DNA of 25,143 bases, from positions 1 to 25,143 of the IMG/VR virus record IMGVR_UViG_3300025846_000038. One strand, 5' to 3'. The notes under the pieces were generated by a model. It ran no database searches and was not told where the DNA came from. It worked only from the letters and a program-made list of their open reading frames with translations. The position numbers were made by a program, and so were the translations under genes. Positions 2,859 through 22,297 of the stretch are shown here, piece after piece (the stretch's first letter is position 1; every line of letters starts with the position of its first letter). The DNA comes from a virus.

Positions 2859-3674
2859 ATGCTAGTAAACGAATCAGTGTATTCATTCCTAAATGAAGAA
2901 TTTATTGCTCAAGAAATCATCAATGAGAGATTCGATATTAATAAAATTAAGGATAAGGTAAAGAAAACTGCTATTCTTACTTCGATGTTTCTATTTGCTG
3001 CAAATCAACAAGGTTATAAAAATCTTCCTTCTAAAGAAGAAGTTAAGCATAATCATACAATTGGTGTTTTAGCGAATCAAAGAAATCTAACACTTAAAGA
3101 GATAGAGCAAAAATTTGAAAATCTTTTTGATATCTATTTTTATGAAACACCGCAAATATCACAAACACCGCAAATAAATTACGATATTTTGCAGAATCCT
3201 ATGACTCTAATAACTAGCCCAGAAGGAATAAAGTTTATTAAAGATCATGAAAAACTTAGTTTAGAAGCTTATTCAATTGGAGATGGAAAAGTTACAGTTG
3301 GCTGGGGTCATGCAGAACCAGAAGGAACTTCAGAATTTGAAATAGGCCAAACTATTTCTAAATCTGTAGCCAGTAAATTATTCAGGAAAGATATAAAAAC
3401 AGTAGAAGCAGGGGTTAGAGGTTTATTTAGATTATGGAAAGGAAGAGGATTAGATGTTAACATCTCTCAGCATATGTGGGATTCTATGATTTCAATGGCC
3501 TTTAATATGGGGGTGGATGGATTAAGAGGATCTGACGTAATTTTAGCTCTCAGAGATGAAGACTATATTCAAGCAGCCGATAGTATTTTAACTACAAATG
3601 TAGATGATAAGTTCCCTGGATTGGAAAGAAGAAGAACCGATGAGAGAAAGCTTTTTATAAAAGATTTAATCTAA
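2859..3674 (+). CDS. T4-type lysozyme (GH24) with N-terminal extension
   Basis: The protein has 271 residues. The GH24 domain starts near residue 118: Glu131 in DHEKLSLEAY, then GDGKVTVGWGH with Thr146, exactly 15 residues after the glutamate as in T4 lysozyme (Glu11, Thr26). The usual catalytic aspartate position (+9) is isoleucine, and the nearest aspartate is Asp142 (+11), so the loop is shifted. The domain continues through MISMAFNMGVDGL to PGLERRRTDERKLF, the usual GH24 ending. It should cleave peptidoglycan glycosidic bonds. About 115 residues precede the domain: an acidic/hydrophobic start (SFLNEEFIAQEIINE), a weak hydrophobic stretch (TAILTSMFLFAA, residues 38-49), and a linker with two TPQI units. 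This extension may be a membrane or head-targeting element. The stop overlaps the facing gene by 4 bases. Confidence 0.88.
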   Translation: MLVNESVYSFLNEEFIAQEIINERFDINKIKDKVKKTAILTSMFLFAANQQGYKNLPSKEEVKHNHTIGVLANQRNLTLKEIEQKFENLFDIYFYETPQISQTPQINYDILQNPMTLITSPEGIKFIKDHEKLSLEAYSIGDGKVTVGWGHAEPEGTSEFEIGQTISKSVASKLFRKDIKTVEAGVRGLFRLWKGRGLDVNISQHMWDSMISMAFNMGVDGLRGSDVILALRDEDYIQAADSILTTNVDDKFPGLERRRTDERKLFIKDLI

Positions 3675-3910: not shown

Positions 3911-4387
3911 TTATTCAGCAGCTTCTCTTAAAGCATCCATCAATTCATGTATATTTTTGAATGTTTGTTTCAATACTCCTTTTTTGTGTGATGCATGTTC
4001 ATAATCTCTGAATGGATTAGATGAAGATTTTTCAAATTCTTCTCCATTTTCTCCATCTTCATATTCCATAGACATTTTACCTGATGTATATACAGTTTTA
4101 GCATCAATGGAAATTTCTTTAGTTTCTGGATCAAGTGTTAACACACCATCAACCTCTACTTCATAAAATGTTTTATTATATCCCGACATTTGATGATCAA
4201 TTGTGCCATGTATTTCAACAGTAATTGCATTTATTTCATCAAAAATACTTAAATTAAAAACACTTCCATGATTAGTTTCATCAAAATTATCTTCAATTTG
4301 TTTCATTAAAGGTGTTATGCCAATATGCATGTCTTTAATAGGATCAGATTCTTCTTTAAATGCTTCGCTTACGAACTTAGCTCTCAT
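3911..4387 (-). CDS. Leader-bearing unknown protein A (158 aa)
   Basis: Two ATGs are possible, at 4393 and 4387. I chose 4387 because it makes an ATGA overlap with the stop of the upstream gene and gives an N-terminus (MRAKFVSEAF) aligned with that of the upstream protein. Residues 1-23 match the upstream protein at M-x-A-x-F-x-x-E-x-F-x-E-x-S-D-P-I-x-D-M-x-x-G. After that the sequences differ completely. The remainder is acidic and beta-rich (ITVEIHGTI, YEVEVDGVLTL, EISIDAKTVYTSG) and ends in a helix (IHELMDALREAAE). I know no family for it. The leader resembles a T4 capsid-targeting sequence, so it may be a virion internal protein. Confidence 0.6.
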   Translation of the reverse strand: MRAKFVSEAFKEESDPIKDMHIGITPLMKQIEDNFDETNHGSVFNLSIFDEINAITVEIHGTIDHQMSGYNKTFYEVEVDGVLTLDPETKEISIDAKTVYTSGKMSMEYEDGENGEEFEKSSSNPFRDYEHASHKKGVLKQTFKNIHELMDALREAAE

Positions 4388-4851
4388 AGCCATGTTTCTA
4401 TTTCTTTTAATGTTTGCAACTGTTTCTCAACTGTTTTAATACGTTTTGCAATTTTTACTTTGGTACCATATTTTCTTTTAATCAAAACTTTTATAGACAC
4501 CATTGGATCATGAGAAACTTTGCATATATTACTTCCATAGTCATTAGCTAAACTAAAACCACCTTTCCAGCCTTCTTCACGTGCAGCTGCTGTAGTAGAA
4601 TAAAAATATTGAACATCCATGCTCTTATCCTCATCGTAATCAACGGCATTCTCATCTCCTTGAATATTAATCTCATAGTGACCATCTCCGAATTCAAAGG
4701 ATTTGTTAATTTCAGCTTCAATATCATATTTTTTAAGTTCTTTAACCAACCATGGCAGAAGAACTTTAGGATTGTTTTTTAAACCCACTCCCATGTCTAT
4801 AATAGGATCGGAACCTTCTGTAAATTTCTCATTAATAAACTGAGCTTTCAT
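4384..4851 (-). CDS. Leader-bearing unknown protein B (155 aa)
   Basis: First gene of a three-gene leftward operon (4851 to 3671). The N-terminus MKAQFINEKFTEGSDPI is the leader shared with the next gene. It contains INE, which fits the (I/L)-x-E cleavage rule of the T4 prohead protease. The body has an amphipathic helix (PKVLLPWLVKELKKYDI), a beta-rich acidic middle with YFYSTTAAAREEGWKGG, and a basic C-terminal part (IKRKYGTKVKIAKRIK) that could form a coiled coil or bind nucleic acid. There is no signal peptide. A TATAAATA box stands 14 bases before the ATG. Function is not recognised. Confidence 0.6.
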   Translation of the reverse strand: MKAQFINEKFTEGSDPIIDMGVGLKNNPKVLLPWLVKELKKYDIEAEINKSFEFGDGHYEINIQGDENAVDYDEDKSMDVQYFYSTTAAAREEGWKGGFSLANDYGSNICKVSHDPMVSIKVLIKRKYGTKVKIAKRIKTVEKQLQTLKEIETWL

Positions 4852-8427: not shown

Positions 8428-11400
8428 TTAATCTTTTATTAATCTTAATGAAAAATAATTTGTTCTAACTTGCCACGAAAAGTATATTGTATTTGTGTTG
8501 TCTAAATAAAGTAGTTCAGTATTTCCTGTAGCATCTGTTGAAGTCCACCATAATCCATAACTTTTTAAACCGCCGAAACCTCCCCAATTTCCACCACCAC
8601 CACGACCACCCCATCCAGAGGTATTAGTTCCATTAACTGTATTCCAATAAGTTGTTCCTATTTCCTTTAAACTATTAGCAGAATTACTGACAGTAGTTTT
8701 CAGTGTTTTATATTCAGTTTCTGATGGTAAGTGAAAACCCGGATACTGAGCAACAGCAGTACTTAATTCGGTATAGGTATAAAGTCCGCCATAAAGTGCT
8801 CTATTAGCCTCATCGTTATTATATACTGTGCCAACTACATTTGTATCAACATTATATTTCATCCAAACTTGTGAACCAATAGTAATAGTTGGAATTGTAG
8901 ATAAAGTTGTTACATTCAAAATATTAGATGGATTAGAATCACCTGCTAAATTATGGGCAAATACTTTATACCAATATGATGTTGATGGAATTACACTATT
9001 ATCAAAGGCCCAATTGGTACCATTATTTGATATTAAACTATAATTAGCCCCATCTGTTGATTTATATAGTTTACACCACTCAGTGTTCGTATTCCATTGT
9101 AAGAGGATTGATGTACTTCCTATATCTGTTGCTATTAAGTTTGTTGGTGCATTAGGTACGACACCAGCTGTTTGAACAACTATCCTCAATATTCCAACCA
9201 CTGTATGACCAGTTGAATTATAACAATCGAGTCCAAAATAATATATAGTATTAGCAGTAAGTCCAGTAACATTAAATGTTGTTGAATTGGCAGGTAATAT
9301 TTGTTCCCATATTGGCGGATCGTACGTAGGATCGATGTATCGTATTACTTTATAATTAGTCTCGGTTACAGAATTATCTACCCACGATAAATTAATTTGA
9401 TTAGTGCCAATATATGATGCTACAAAATTCGTTGGAGATGATGGAATACATGGTATAGAACTTGTAGTAAATTCCCTTAAATCACTGTATAACGATGTGG
9501 AATACGTATCAGTTGCTTTTATTCTATAATAATATGTCGTTAATGGTAAAACAGACCAATCATTATATAAATAATATTCACCCCGTTGATCATTGGGATA
9601 TGACGGAGTAAGATCAGACAAGTGATTCCAATTTACATTATCCGTTGATTTTTCTAATATAACTGTATTATTCATGAAAGATTCACTAATCATTGCACAC
9701 TCTATTCCACAACTAGCATGTTGAGTCATGGTAAAAAAGAATGGTTTACGAACAATTAAGGATGGTTTTTCACCAACTTGAATATCGTCAATTATGATAT
9801 AACTACCATCGGCTACGATTTTTATAGATGTTAAAGTTTTGCCTACAAAATAACTGCTAATACTATATAAAGTATGCAGATTAATTGCGTTACCCCACCA
9901 ATAAGAACCACCAAGACACATTAAATCATTATAGCTGCCATAGGATGTTTGACTCGTAATCCGAATCCAAGGTAAACTATCACTTTTAATATAAAATTTT
10001 ATCCAATATTTATCTACAGACCAATCAAGAATATCATTAAGAGGAATATTTATTTCTATATGAGTTATATTAGATGTTTTTACATATTTTAAGCTATTTG
10101 TTCCTTCATAACTATCATTAGATATGACAATAGCAGGTGTATTGGATTCCAAATAAGCACCACTATTAATAAATCTAATTTCAGAATCTGTGACTCCGGC
10201 ACGCGTTTCGGCATTTACAAAATCTGGAATATTATTTATGTTCAATGGTATCGATGTGGGCCTAGCACTTACAATATTAGAATCCGAAGAATTACCCTTA
10301 GAATTATACGCACACACCTTATAGAAATATAGAATTGAAGGATTTGTGTCATTATCTGAATAATTACAAACATTGGTTGTAGTGGTTGCAATTTCTGTCC
10401 ATGACGTATTATTATATAACGACCTGTAAATTCTAAATAGTGATTCATAATCACTATTATCACTCCAATTTAAATCAATCTTTGAAGAAGATACAACAGT
10501 GGCTATTAAGTTAGTTGGAGCATTAAGAAAGGGTATCGCAATCGATATATAATTTGAAAAAGATGATTCCAATCCAGCTGGATTGAATGTTACAATTTTA
10601 TACCACCAAACCAATATTTCAGAATCTAAATAATTATTAATATATGTTGTTGGTGTAGGTAAAACACTGTAATTATTAACTTTTTCAAACAATGAGTAAT
10701 TGCTGCCATCAACTGATCTAAATACTTTAAATCCAATTACACTACTATCATTTGGAGAAAAAGATAATGTAATTTCCATAGCACTATCATCAAAAAATCC
10801 TGTTAAATTCGTAGGAGTATTCGGCATATCAAAGGGATTTAAATATGTATAATTTATATCTTTAATGTACAAAGGTTCGTAATAGGCTGATACGTCAATT
10901 TGATGCGTCGACGCTTCCCATCTAATAAGAGGTAAAAAACAAAATCCTACAGCAGACTTTATAGGATTACTCATATTTATGCTCAAATCTATTATTTTGG
11001 CTGTAAGATCATATTCAAAAGGAGTCCAAGACGTTTTGGCTGGTAAATCTTCACAAACTTCTATGAATTCAGAACCGTCTTGCTGGCCAGGTCCAGCCAT
11101 GTCATCTCCTGTAAAATCTAAATAAATTTGATAATCATTATCAGATTTATAATTAAAAGATATTTTATAATGATAATCAGGTGTTGTTAAAATATTATAA
11201 GGATTCATAATATTCACCCCTATTGTATTTTCTGCATAATATGCACCCCAATATCCTTCTAACATTTTAAAACACGGGGTTGGATTTATTTCAGATTCGA
11301 TATGTCCTTCCCAGTGAAAATCCGGGCCAGCTGGTCCGCCAACTACTGCCGCAAAAACAAAAGAATTTTGCATGGTGTCATCGTAAATCCATCCTGAAAC

Positions 11401-11454
11401 ATCGCTGTTAGCAATGATAGGATTTGGTAAATATTTGGTTAAATAATTGCTCAT
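8428..11454 (-). CDS. Tail adhesin: multi-FN3 with C-terminal FISUMP (C-type-lectin-like) domain
   Basis: The protein has 1008 residues and no signal peptide. Order: an N-terminal part of about 200 residues with jelly-roll-like strands; FN3 domains about 212-308 and 311-398; a carbohydrate-binding-module-like region 402-563; three more FN3-type domains about 567-666, 671-764 and 767-852; then residues 854-1008. That last part begins ITIGSQVWMKYNVDTN, contains GFHLPSETEYKTL, a glycine-rich loop and SYGLWWTSTD, and ends in FSLRLIKD, as in Fib_succ_major/FISUMP domains, which have the fold used by the Mtd-type variable proteins of some phages. It is most likely a receptor-binding tail fibre or a virion adhesin. 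It is the only gene of its leftward unit. Without structural neighbours, a secreted adhesin cannot be fully excluded. Confidence 0.8.
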   Translation of the reverse strand: MSNYLTKYLPNPIIANSDVSGWIYDDTMQNSFVFAAVVGGPAGPDFHWEGHIESEINPTPCFKMLEGYWGAYYAENTIGVNIMNPYNILTTPDYHYKISFNYKSDNDYQIYLDFTGDDMAGPGQQDGSEFIEVCEDLPAKTSWTPFEYDLTAKIIDLSINMSNPIKSAVGFCFLPLIRWEASTHQIDVSAYYEPLYIKDINYTYLNPFDMPNTPTNLTGFFDDSAMEITLSFSPNDSSVIGFKVFRSVDGSNYSLFEKVNNYSVLPTPTTYINNYLDSEILVWWYKIVTFNPAGLESSFSNYISIAIPFLNAPTNLIATVVSSSKIDLNWSDNSDYESLFRIYRSLYNNTSWTEIATTTTNVCNYSDNDTNPSILYFYKVCAYNSKGNSSDSNIVSARPTSIPLNINNIPDFVNAETRAGVTDSEIRFINSGAYLESNTPAIVISNDSYEGTNSLKYVKTSNITHIEINIPLNDILDWSVDKYWIKFYIKSDSLPWIRITSQTSYGSYNDLMCLGGSYWWGNAINLHTLYSISSYFVGKTLTSIKIVADGSYIIIDDIQVGEKPSLIVRKPFFFTMTQHASCGIECAMISESFMNNTVILEKSTDNVNWNHLSDLTPSYPNDQRGEYYLYNDWSVLPLTTYYYRIKATDTYSTSLYSDLREFTTSSIPCIPSSPTNFVASYIGTNQINLSWVDNSVTETNYKVIRYIDPTYDPPIWEQILPANSTTFNVTGLTANTIYYFGLDCYNSTGHTVVGILRIVVQTAGVVPNAPTNLIATDIGSTSILLQWNTNTEWCKLYKSTDGANYSLISNNGTNWAFDNSVIPSTSYWYKVFAHNLAGDSNPSNILNVTTLSTIPTITIGSQVWMKYNVDTNVVGTVYNNDEANRALYGGLYTYTELSTAVAQYPGFHLPSETEYKTLKTTVSNSANSLKEIGTTYWNTVNGTNTSGWGGRGGGGNWGGFGGLKSYGLWWTSTDATGNTELLYLDNTNTIYFSWQVRTNYFSLRLIKD

Positions 11455-12990: not shown

Positions 12991-13296
12991 TTGGCAATAC
13001 TTGGAATTTTTGGGGCAGGATTAATAGGATTGTTTATAGCAATCTTTATTTACGGACCTATTCTTTTATATTTTTTCTATGTGCCCACAACGAATAAACT
13101 TCGTGTATCAGAAAAAGTAGAGGGACCATACACATACTATCGCTCAGAATATTATCGTCCAATTGCTGGATGGACTGGATTTAACGCTTCAAAATATAAT
13201 GGAACTATATGGGTGGATAATTCATGGACAAATAATAAACAATATTGTGAAGATAATATTGTAATTTACAAAAACCTTAAAAACATAAAATCATGA
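12991..13296 (+). CDS. Small membrane protein, tandem paralogue 1 (TTG start)
   Basis: The protein has 101 residues. The start is TTG at 12991: the 13 bases before it (AAAACATAAAATC) are the same as those before the ATG of the next gene, and translation then gives a clean hydrophobic helix (residues 2-30). The helix is followed by TNKLRVSEKVEGPYTYYRSE, then GWTGFNASKYNGTIW, shared in outline with the next protein (TN-x-x-RV-x-EK; GW-x-x-F-x-ASKY-x-G-x-I). Function unknown; it is probably anchored in the inner membrane with a small soluble domain. It overlaps the next gene by ATGA. Confidence 0.65.
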   Translation: MAILGIFGAGLIGLFIAIFIYGPILLYFFYVPTTNKLRVSEKVEGPYTYYRSEYYRPIAGWTGFNASKYNGTIWVDNSWTNNKQYCEDNIVIYKNLKNIKS

Positions 13297-13586
13297 CAGA
13301 AACACTTGCATCAATATTCGTAATTATAGGCATTGCATCAGTTTTCGTAGTATTTGCCATATTTTTCAGATGGTTCCCTGCAACAAATGTTTTTCGTGTT
13401 GCTGAAAAGAAAAAAGGAACACTTATGTTTTACAGAGCTGAAGTACGTCATCCATTTTTTGGATGGTCTCCGTTTTGGGCTAGTAAATATGATGGTGTAA
13501 TTAGCAGATGTTATGATTGGGAAATGTATACTTCCGGTGCACTTAATAATATCGAAGTATTCAAACAGCTTAAACCAATTAAATAA
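13293..13586 (+). CDS. Small membrane protein, tandem paralogue 2
   Basis: The protein has 97 residues. One membrane helix (about residues 6-28) is followed by FPATNVFRVAEKKKGTLMFY, then GWSPFWASKYDGVI, the same layout as the preceding protein, so the pair arose by tandem duplication. The leader before its ATG also repeats. No function can be named. Confidence 0.7.
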   Translation: MTETLASIFVIIGIASVFVVFAIFFRWFPATNVFRVAEKKKGTLMFYRAEVRHPFFGWSPFWASKYDGVISRCYDWEMYTSGALNNIEVFKQLKPIK

Positions 13587-18339: not shown

Positions 18340-18728
18340 TGAAAACCTCTTGCTTTAAATATTACACAGGTGAAATGGGAGTGGCCATTTGTCTATATCC
18401 TCCAATTGATTGGTCGGGATTAAGATTTTCTGCGCTTGAACCTGACAGAGATATCTTTTTTGCAATTAAAAACGGCCAATTGACTCAAAAGGAATATGAA
18501 AAACTTTATATACAAAATACTCTTTCAATATTAGACCCTACAAACATATACAATATGTTCAGCAAAAATGTATTGTTATGTTGGGAAGACCCAGGAGAAT
18601 TTTGCCATAGGAGAATTGTGGCAAAATGGATTGAAGAAAATACTGGATTTGATGTTCCAGAGTGGAATATCAAAGATGACAAATTAGAACAACTACAACA
18701 AAAGAAAAATATCAAACCTTTATTCTAA
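18339..18728 (+). CDS. DUF488 family protein
   Basis: The protein has 129 residues. The order SCFKYY, VAICLYPPIDWSGLRFSALEPDRDIFFAIKNG, YIQNTLSILDPTNIY, and LLCWEDPGEFCHRRIVAKWIEE fits DUF488; the LC-W-E-x-PG-x-FCHR-x-x-VA-x-W core is diagnostic. Its biochemical function is not established. It directly precedes the NADAR gene with a 1-base overlap, and I recall short DUF488 proteins as frequent in phage and mobile-element accessory regions. Confidence 0.8.
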   Translation: MKTSCFKYYTGEMGVAICLYPPIDWSGLRFSALEPDRDIFFAIKNGQLTQKEYEKLYIQNTLSILDPTNIYNMFSKNVLLCWEDPGEFCHRRIVAKWIEENTGFDVPEWNIKDDKLEQLQQKKNIKPLF

Positions 18729-19210
18729 TGAGAACAACAGATACACACATATATTTTTGGGGATCGTTCCTTTCGAATTGGATTCCGGCTGATTTGGAAA
18801 TTGAATATCTTGGAAAAAAATTCAATACTTCTGAACAATTGTATATGTATATTAAAGCCAAGGCTTTCAATGATCATGAAACAGCTCATGAGATTTTAAC
18901 AAAAGGCCAGCATCCTAAAGACGCAAAAAATTTAGGTAGAAAAGTTACAAATTATGATGATGAAATATGGGCAAAATATCGTGAAGAAGCAATGTATAAA
19001 GCAGTATTCGCAAAATTTTCGCAATATCCATATTTGTGTATGCAACTTTTAGACACAGGCGATAAAATTCTTGTTGAAGGCACTCCATTCGATCCAATTT
19101 GGGGAGTTAAAATTAAATGGGACGATGACAAAATATTGGACGAAAAGAATTGGAAAGGCCAGAATTTACTTGGCAAAGTATTAATGAAAGTAAGAAAAGA
19201 TTTGAGATGA
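18728..19210 (+). CDS. NADAR domain protein (YbiA-like N-glycosidase family)
   Basis: The protein has 160 residues. It contains FWGSFLSNWIPADLEI (10-25), KFNTSEQLYMYIKAKAF with Glu36 (31-47), HPKDAKNLGRKV (62-72), a helix-rich middle, and LVEGTPFDPIWGVK (115-128), together the full NADAR signature. Family members hydrolyse N-glycosidic bonds: YbiA acts on riboflavin-pathway intermediates, and others remove ADP-ribose from guanine in DNA as antidotes to DarT-type toxins. For a phage, reversal of host ADP-ribosylation or a nucleotide-salvage role are both reasonable; the sequence does not decide. It is coupled to DUF488 upstream and overlaps the next gene by ATGA. Confidence 0.87.
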   Translation: MRTTDTHIYFWGSFLSNWIPADLEIEYLGKKFNTSEQLYMYIKAKAFNDHETAHEILTKGQHPKDAKNLGRKVTNYDDEIWAKYREEAMYKAVFAKFSQYPYLCMQLLDTGDKILVEGTPFDPIWGVKIKWDDDKILDEKNWKGQNLLGKVLMKVRKDLR

Positions 19211-21907: not shown

Positions 21908-22297
21908 ATGAAAGGCAAATTTGTAAAAGAAAATCTTAACGAATCAGATTTAGATTGGTTTGAAGGTGATAATGAAAAACACGATCCAAATGATTGGGAA
22001 GATGAATATGGAAAAGATCGTCCGGGTTTAGTAAGAGAATTAACAGCATTATTTGAAGAAGCAGCTCAAATAGGTTATTCATTAGAAGAACTTCAAGAAG
22101 TATGTAATGCAGCTTTAAATGAGGTAGATTGGGAAGAAATTAATAACTATAAAAATAGACATAAAGAACAACAAGAACCTCGAAGAGATTTCTATAAGGT
22201 TCAGCATGCTAATAAAGAATTGGAAGAGGAACATAAACAACACGAAAGATCTTCGGATTCAGAAATATATGGTGATGGTCCTGGCGGACAATTCTAA
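21908..22297 (+). CDS. Leader-bearing acidic protein (129 aa)
   Basis: The N-terminus MKGKFVKENLNESDLDWFEGD resembles the leaders of the two leftward genes at 4387 and 4851 (M-x-x-x-F-V/I-x-E, then E-SD). Residues 39-75 (PGLVRELTALFEEAAQIGYSLEELQEVCNAALNEVDW) are an amphipathic helical pair. The tail is charged and probably disordered, ending GDGPGGQF. Known family not recognised. It lies between topoisomerase and clamp genes; a head-packaged protein is possible if the leader works as suggested. Confidence 0.6.
   Translation: MKGKFVKENLNESDLDWFEGDNEKHDPNDWEDEYGKDRPGLVRELTALFEEAAQIGYSLEELQEVCNAALNEVDWEEINNYKNRHKEQQEPRRDFYKVQHANKELEEEHKQHERSSDSEIYGDGPGGQF

Follow-up and report, generated by a model that had tools for sequence, protein, structure and literature searches.

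A common N-terminal leader on unrelated proteins of uncultured giant T4-like phages, a probable head-targeting and processing tag

Two neighbouring genes of an uncultured phage encode proteins that begin alike and then continue as unrelated sequences. What is their common beginning for, and how far does it extend beyond this pair? Both genes run leftward in the window analysed here, a viral contig of 25,143 bp (IMG/VR record IMGVR_UViG_3300025846_000038), and their products are called proteins a and b (Table 1).

Two leftward proteins and their surroundings

Consistent with the preliminary description of this DNA, in which two adjacent leftward proteins share a leader in front of unrelated bodies, the ORF starts (MAMRAKFVSEAFKEESDPIKDMHIG for 3911-4393, MKAQFINEKFTEGSDPIIDMGVG for 4384-4851) align over their first 25 residues with a BLOSUM62 local score of 70 (shuffles 15.6 ± 3.5, 0 of 5,000 reaching 70), whereas the bodies score 31, which is the chance level (shuffles 31.1 ± 5.7). 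The leader common to both proteins comprises their first 23–25 residues. In protein b it consists of an 8-residue start peptide with a predicted cut after E8, followed by the conserved junction described below; in protein a the predicted cut follows E10 and V-S-E replaces [ILV]-N-E. When a leader HMM is run over the window, only proteins a and b score strongly, all others reaching at most 2.2 bits. Ordinary gene duplication, with a and b as diverged full-length homologues, would fit their adjacency and the fair similarity of their leader DNA. Against bodies that align at chance and a leader found on 112 body clusters, the probability of such an origin is negligible, and full-length homology of the pair is ruled out.

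No PHROG family matches protein a or protein b, and a search for homologues of the protein a body found none. Protein b has two homologues, of which one (L043) carries a 10-residue start peptide instead, the start having 8 residues in two phages and 10 in the third. The AlphaFold2 model of protein b (mean pLDDT 50) is too poor for use.

Table 1. Features of the window that bear on the leader (↓, predicted cut)
Feature	Position	Strand	Details
Protein a	3911..4393	−	160 aa; leader and 135-residue body
Leader of protein a, MAMRAKFVSE↓AFKEESDPIKDMHIG	4319..4393	−	HMM 41.8 bits
Protein b	4384..4851	−	155 aa; leader and 131-residue body, family not assigned
Leader of protein b, MKAQFINE↓KFTEGSDPIIDMGVG	4783..4851	−	HMM 44.6 bits; 15 s.d. 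above shuffles versus the other leader
Lysozyme N-terminus with two [LI]NE sites (FLNE, IINE)	2859..2927	+	Sites kept in orthologues; endolysin family match; without SDPI junction
Possible start-peptide-only case, MKGKFVKENLNE	21908..21943	+	Fronts the 129-aa protein 21908-22297; without SDPI junction
ORF ended by the contig end	23287..25143	+	Orthologue in G001 of 843 aa

Two further proteins had been cited as similar cases, and for each the likeness is at best partial. The start of the 21908 protein (MKGKFVKENLNESD) gives 7.2 bits with an 8-residue start matrix, the best among the other window starts but at the chance level for a whole genome; with the leader HMM it gives 2.1 bits, the SDPI half being absent. 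Its N-terminus is kept in an ordinary homologue of the sister phage (L031:15541-15810), and it would at best be a case of the start peptide alone. In the lysozyme, orthologues from other phages keep two [LI]NE sites within the first ~23 residues, which is compatible with a processed N-terminus, but the SDPI junction is absent. As for the ORF that runs off the contig, its sister-phage orthologue has an internal leader near residue 763, and the corresponding leader of the window copy may lie beyond the contig end.

Other genes of the window encode an MT-A70 methyltransferase (2287-2820, +), a NADAR-domain protein (18728-19210, +), a DUF932 protein that is 91% identical in the sister phage (12109-12969, +) and a protein of 1008 aa (8428-11454, −) that combines fibronectin type III repeats with a Fib_succ_major domain at its C-terminus and could be an adhesin or tail protein. 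Two adjacent small predicted membrane proteins (12991-13296 and 13293-13586, both +) match the same sister-phage protein and are probable tandem duplicates. Lipoprotein-like signal peptides and the Fib_succ_major domain suggest a host among the Bacteroidota.

Spread and anatomy of the leader

Much of the window gene order is found, in the opposite direction, in a sister contig of 162 kb (G001), in which a 25-residue leader query gives 23 matches, several of them within single ORFs. A degenerate DNA pattern for DPIxDMGIG retrieves 101 IMG/VR stretches, crowded onto some tens of contigs. Many further leader-bearing genes are found in a 405-kb phage (G002): over the 400 kb scanned, 64 of 483 ORFs contain between them 88 copies by the leader HMM, set apart from all else by a clean gap in score (20 versus 6 bits). 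A second contig (G003) probably derives from this phage, its protease segment matching that of G002 exactly, and two others from the sample of G003 (G004 and G006) have leader copies in common with G002. Altogether, 345 distinct leader modules were collected from related uncultured phages, the copies being de-duplicated on exact sequence only and their retrieval through the DPIxDMGIG motif favouring typical ones. Across 257 Gb of bacterial and archaeal genomes the same pattern has four matches, of which one lies in a Bacteroidetes MAG and none is part of a leader-like context. Among isolated-phage relatives there was no match to the protein or to either leader, short leader queries revealing strong matches only, and the literature text searched contained no SDPIKDM-like strings.

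The leader is a two-part element, composed of a start peptide and a junction. The start peptide (M-K-[LI]-V-[RK]-E-[HY]) is conserved at N-termini only, positions P10–P4 carrying 1.4–2.4 bits in N-terminal copies versus 0.4–1.3 bits internally. The junction ([ILV]-N-E↓K-F-x-E-[ED]-S-D-P-I-x-D-M-G-I-G) is found both at N-termini and, in multi-module ORFs, between domains of ~100 residues. Its conservation, as [ILV]-[NY]-E-K-F-x-E-[ED]-S-D-P-I-x-D-M-G-I-G, differs little between N-terminal and internal copies, in a comparison whose search pattern required E at P1; a looser copy set has E at P1 in 97% and I, L or V at P3 in 95%. The length from the start Met to this E peaks at 10 (90 copies) and at 8 residues (56 copies), and nearly all N-terminal SDPI copies with a Met have a removable predicted propeptide. 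For a module family that could be modelled well, the structure prediction gives a flexible leader (pLDDT about 50) in front of a folded body (above 90).

The bodies behind the leader are diverse. The 345 modules form 112 BLAST body clusters (75 single), and the larger body families occur behind first and later leaders alike, which indicates that modules have been shuffled. Ankyrin repeats are present in 20 of 60 scanned proteins, LRR-like domains can be recognized by eye, and many bodies are of no known family; searches of 60 leader ORFs with Pfam, PHROGs and PADLOC returned mainly ankyrin and little else. The second-largest module family (L036:882-1223 and 40 relatives) yields a confident model (pLDDT 86), for which a fold search found no PDB match. 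One G002 protein (167659-169563, −) has a start resembling the T4 capsid-targeting sequence (CTS), MKFSSYISWLNENINEG, followed by a cytidylyltransferase-like domain, a leader and a nucleotidyltransferase-like domain, both domains being assigned by eye with no Pfam match.

A leader that sits at module boundaries, is inserted in frame in some orthologues and fronts shuffled bodies could be a recombination or selfish DNA cassette whose peptide has no function. Synonymous codons are nevertheless free to vary at the invariant leader residues, so that selection acts on the protein, and the protein pattern is retained by two alleles whose bodies are homologous; the cassette explanation is accordingly highly improbable.

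Upstream of most G002 leader genes that have free upstream DNA lies an AT-rich box (AATATATAAAATAAA), similar ones preceding the portal and protease genes. The box precedes 13 of 17 such leader genes versus 48 of 174 others (p = 1e-4, an optimistic value because the box was chosen from the same leader genes) and may represent a shared promoter. It precedes 2 of 6 homologues of T4 late genes versus 1 of 14 early ones, numbers too small for a late-promoter call.

Likeness to T4 head targeting and prohead processing

IPII, IPIII, Alt and gp24 are cleaved head proteins of T4; in IPIII, replacing the P1 E by D is reported to prevent cleavage. A weight matrix derived from the 10-residue leaders alone and run over 742 candidate T4 Met starts places these four proteins at ranks 1, 2, 3 and 5, respectively, a ranking equalled by 0 of 2,000 column-shuffled matrices. 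In T4, ten N-terminal residues are enough to package IPIII, those at 4 and 7 being important for targeting and those at 8 and 10 for processing, and gp21 cuts after L/I-x-E (PMC9026906). When positions 8 and 10 are taken out of the leader matrix, the four T4 ranks drop to 12–61, so that a large share of the signal comes from the processing residues. Alt, from which T4 removes seven residues, fits the 10-residue register only partially. Other G002 proteins show a slight enrichment of [ILV]NE in their first 20 residues (16 versus 10.5 expected).

Leader-rich G002 encodes a protease of the gp21 family (Peptidase_S77, E = 2.4e-15), which forms one polypeptide with a scaffold-like region and is located beside a Gp23-type MCP; homologous protease/scaffold ORFs adjoin the MCP in 13 further relatives. 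Neither MCP nor S77 protease was found in the window contig or in G001, both of which may be fragments. In all MCP relatives with an N-terminus read (30–100% identity), [LI]NE immediately precedes the predicted mature arm; this reading excludes L181, in which the N-terminus is absent, and L174, for which the neighbouring ORF was read and whose MCP is 100% identical to that of G002. The T4 scaffold is cut at many sites, and the protease/scaffold ORFs of 14 relatives contain 5–12 [ILV]NE triplets versus 1–2 expected. Several close MCP relatives have no SDPI leader; two of them carry the NFERG allele described below.

A direct connection between leader and capsid sequences is seen in a leader-bearing G002 ORF that runs into an MCP-arm-like stretch (MKARTVSE↓MMGAGATPGMGTGAPASMAATTGAQMTGTSSTGSGDNW; the predicted mature MCP arm reads LNE↓AAMGGVSVP...GTAVPASVAATTGAQFTGTTVKGSGDKW). 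In G001 a tail related to this stretch follows a HAD-phosphatase domain with no leader between them, and L061 encodes a related protein in which three in-frame leader modules separate the phosphatase from the tail; judged by sequence, the two are a natural pair with and without leader modules. Four proteins (L061:2568-4622, L034:16436-17581, L153:5622-6779 and L077:1275-1679) have a basic tail that contains an MCP-arm-like stretch and finishes with [LIM]NENK at the C-terminus. The tail sits on a HAD phosphatase or behind leader modules, which some phages have as in-frame insertions and another lacks. G002 also has a second Gp23-family gene besides its main MCP (278966-279658, +; 315-aa frame).

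Most bodies have no head-related family, as might be expected if the leader were unrelated to the head and sent proteins elsewhere, to a replication compartment or the membrane, or marked them for turnover. Such a destination is very unlikely in view of the site held in common with MCP and scaffold, the T4 ranking and the MCP-arm-like stretch in a leader-bearing ORF.

A second allele, a proposed mechanism and known systems

The MCP of one phage (G017) is 79% identical to that of G002, and this phage is devoid of the SDPI leader. It contains about 30 copies, N-terminal and internal, of [IV]-x-E-[SN]-[LI]-N-F-E-R-G-x-D-P-K-x-S-M-x-I-G, and a pattern scan for this NFERGxDPKxSMxIG allele retrieves 31 stretches. 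The cores of the SDPI and NFERG alleles align in a profile alignment with a modest score. Of 65 bodies behind the NFERG leader, 14 are homologous to bodies behind SDPI leaders, suggesting that the repertoires served by the two versions overlap. At the N-terminus, about 13 copies of the NFERG allele are bare (MNFERG...), leaving no room for a cleavable peptide, and are the main sign that the leader core has a role of its own. A further phage (G023, 436 kb) has neither SDPI nor FERG leader, and some twenty of its N-termini read MK[YH]LKxFE, reminiscent of the T4 CTS.

These bare copies bear on whether the leader is cut at all. As an uncut docking peptide, its FxxxxDPxxxMxIG core would bind a single partner, be it the scaffold, a protein of the capsid interior or some other hub, copies in a chain would provide avidity and the E-rich N-terminal part would be no more than a flank. 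Several features of the core suit docking: conservation is highest there, the second allele retains it, some N-termini begin with it directly, and it is flexible and outside the fold. However, P3 and P1 are as well conserved as the core, internally too, and match the MCP and scaffold sites, and the start peptide picks out cleaved T4 head proteins, so that docking without cleavage is rather unlikely.

We favour, with a probability of roughly 0.7, the reading of the leader as a T4-type head-targeting and processing tag that has been elaborated in an uncultured lineage of giant T4-like phages. The first 8–10 residues would steer the new protein into the prohead core, like the 10-residue capsid-targeting sequence of T4, and the gp21-family prohead protease would cut after [ILV]-N-E, a triplet apparently used on MCP and scaffold too. 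Mature cargo would then start with K-F-x-E-E-S-D-P-I-x-D-M-G-I-G, which may aid the protease from the prime side or retain the cargo within the head. Where an ORF has several modules, a single targeting peptide would carry the whole chain, and cuts at the [ILV]NE↓KF junctions would release ~100-residue cargo domains (ankyrin, LRR-like and others); cutting at internal junctions is suggested by the conservation of [ILV]NE there, where the start peptide is not conserved. Finally, the cargo would exit with the DNA and act in the new host. A targeting peptide with a head-protease site is well supported by the sequence comparisons, from which packaging and cutting are inferred; ejection and cargo function are extrapolated from IPI and Alt.

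The modular T4-type tag with a prohead-protease site that the preliminary description had envisaged gains independent support from the T4 ranking, the gp21-family protease, [ILV]NE in MCP and scaffold and the many bearers, but gives an incomplete picture, in which the conserved SDPIxDMGIG after the proposed cut, the internal junctions, the second allele and the bare copies have no place; of its four examples, two (21908 and the lysozyme) lack the SDPI half. Several points count against the tag: conservation peaks on the prime side, over a length greater than that required by known gp21-type sites; the bare MNFERG N-termini exist, and window protein a has V-S-E rather than V-N-E; and no MCP or S77 protease was found in the window contig or G001, nor an SDPI leader in several close MCP relatives.

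A more specific proposal, to which we give slightly less than even odds, is that the multi-module ORFs encode cargo polyproteins. A single N-terminal targeting peptide would bring a chain of as many as eight small domains into the prohead, where the capsid-maturation protease would separate them at the recurring [ILV]NE↓KF..SDPIxDMGIG junctions, providing each particle with a reshufflable injected library. Protease-cut chains of this kind would deliver many proteins at once; neither this mode of delivery nor a head-cargo polyprotein of such a kind was found in the portions of the literature that were searched. If the tag reading is true, the sequence marks 64 of the 483 ORFs of the giant phage G002, about one in eight, as probable head cargo, and a large set of uncharacterised proteins becomes a testable list of injected-protein candidates. 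The cargo domains (ankyrin, LRR-like and others) fit what might be expected of host-target binders, perhaps involved in counter-defence. The existence of a second allele indicates that the principle withstands divergence in sequence, so that the tag is a potential finder of injected proteins in other uncultured T4-like phages.

Comparison with known systems places these features in context. The freshwater Bacteroidetes myophages with bS21 (PMC9723584) resemble the present phages in being large uncultured myophages with a block of terminase, portal, prohead protease and MCP genes; no leader is mentioned in the text consulted. PhiKZ-like giant phages (phiKZ gp175, SPN3US gp245) are similar in that many head and ejected proteins are cut after a short motif ending in E, and some of their propeptides are cut several times (PMC10052503, PMC9026906). 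They differ in their motif, S/A-x-E, and in propeptides that often have 100-250 residues and vary between proteins; no common leader or domain chain was found in the text consulted.

Phage P1 carries in its head the Dar proteins, anti-restriction proteins with capsid-targeting regions that are active in the new host. Compared by description, they share with the proposed cargo the loading of internal proteins into the head for action in the new host, and differ in having no short common junction in chains. With the T4 CTS (IPIII MKTYQEFIAE↓A, IPII) the present leader shares its N-terminal location, its length of about 10 residues, its presence on unrelated bodies and the register of processing residues 8 and 10, as well as a gp21-family protease in the phage and the same type of triplet in MCP and scaffold. 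Beyond T4, what is new is a conserved stretch after the predicted cut, which would stay on the mature protein and has no T4 counterpart, the repetition of the junction within chains, a diverged second version on homologous bodies, and tens of leader genes in one genome in place of the few internal proteins of T4.
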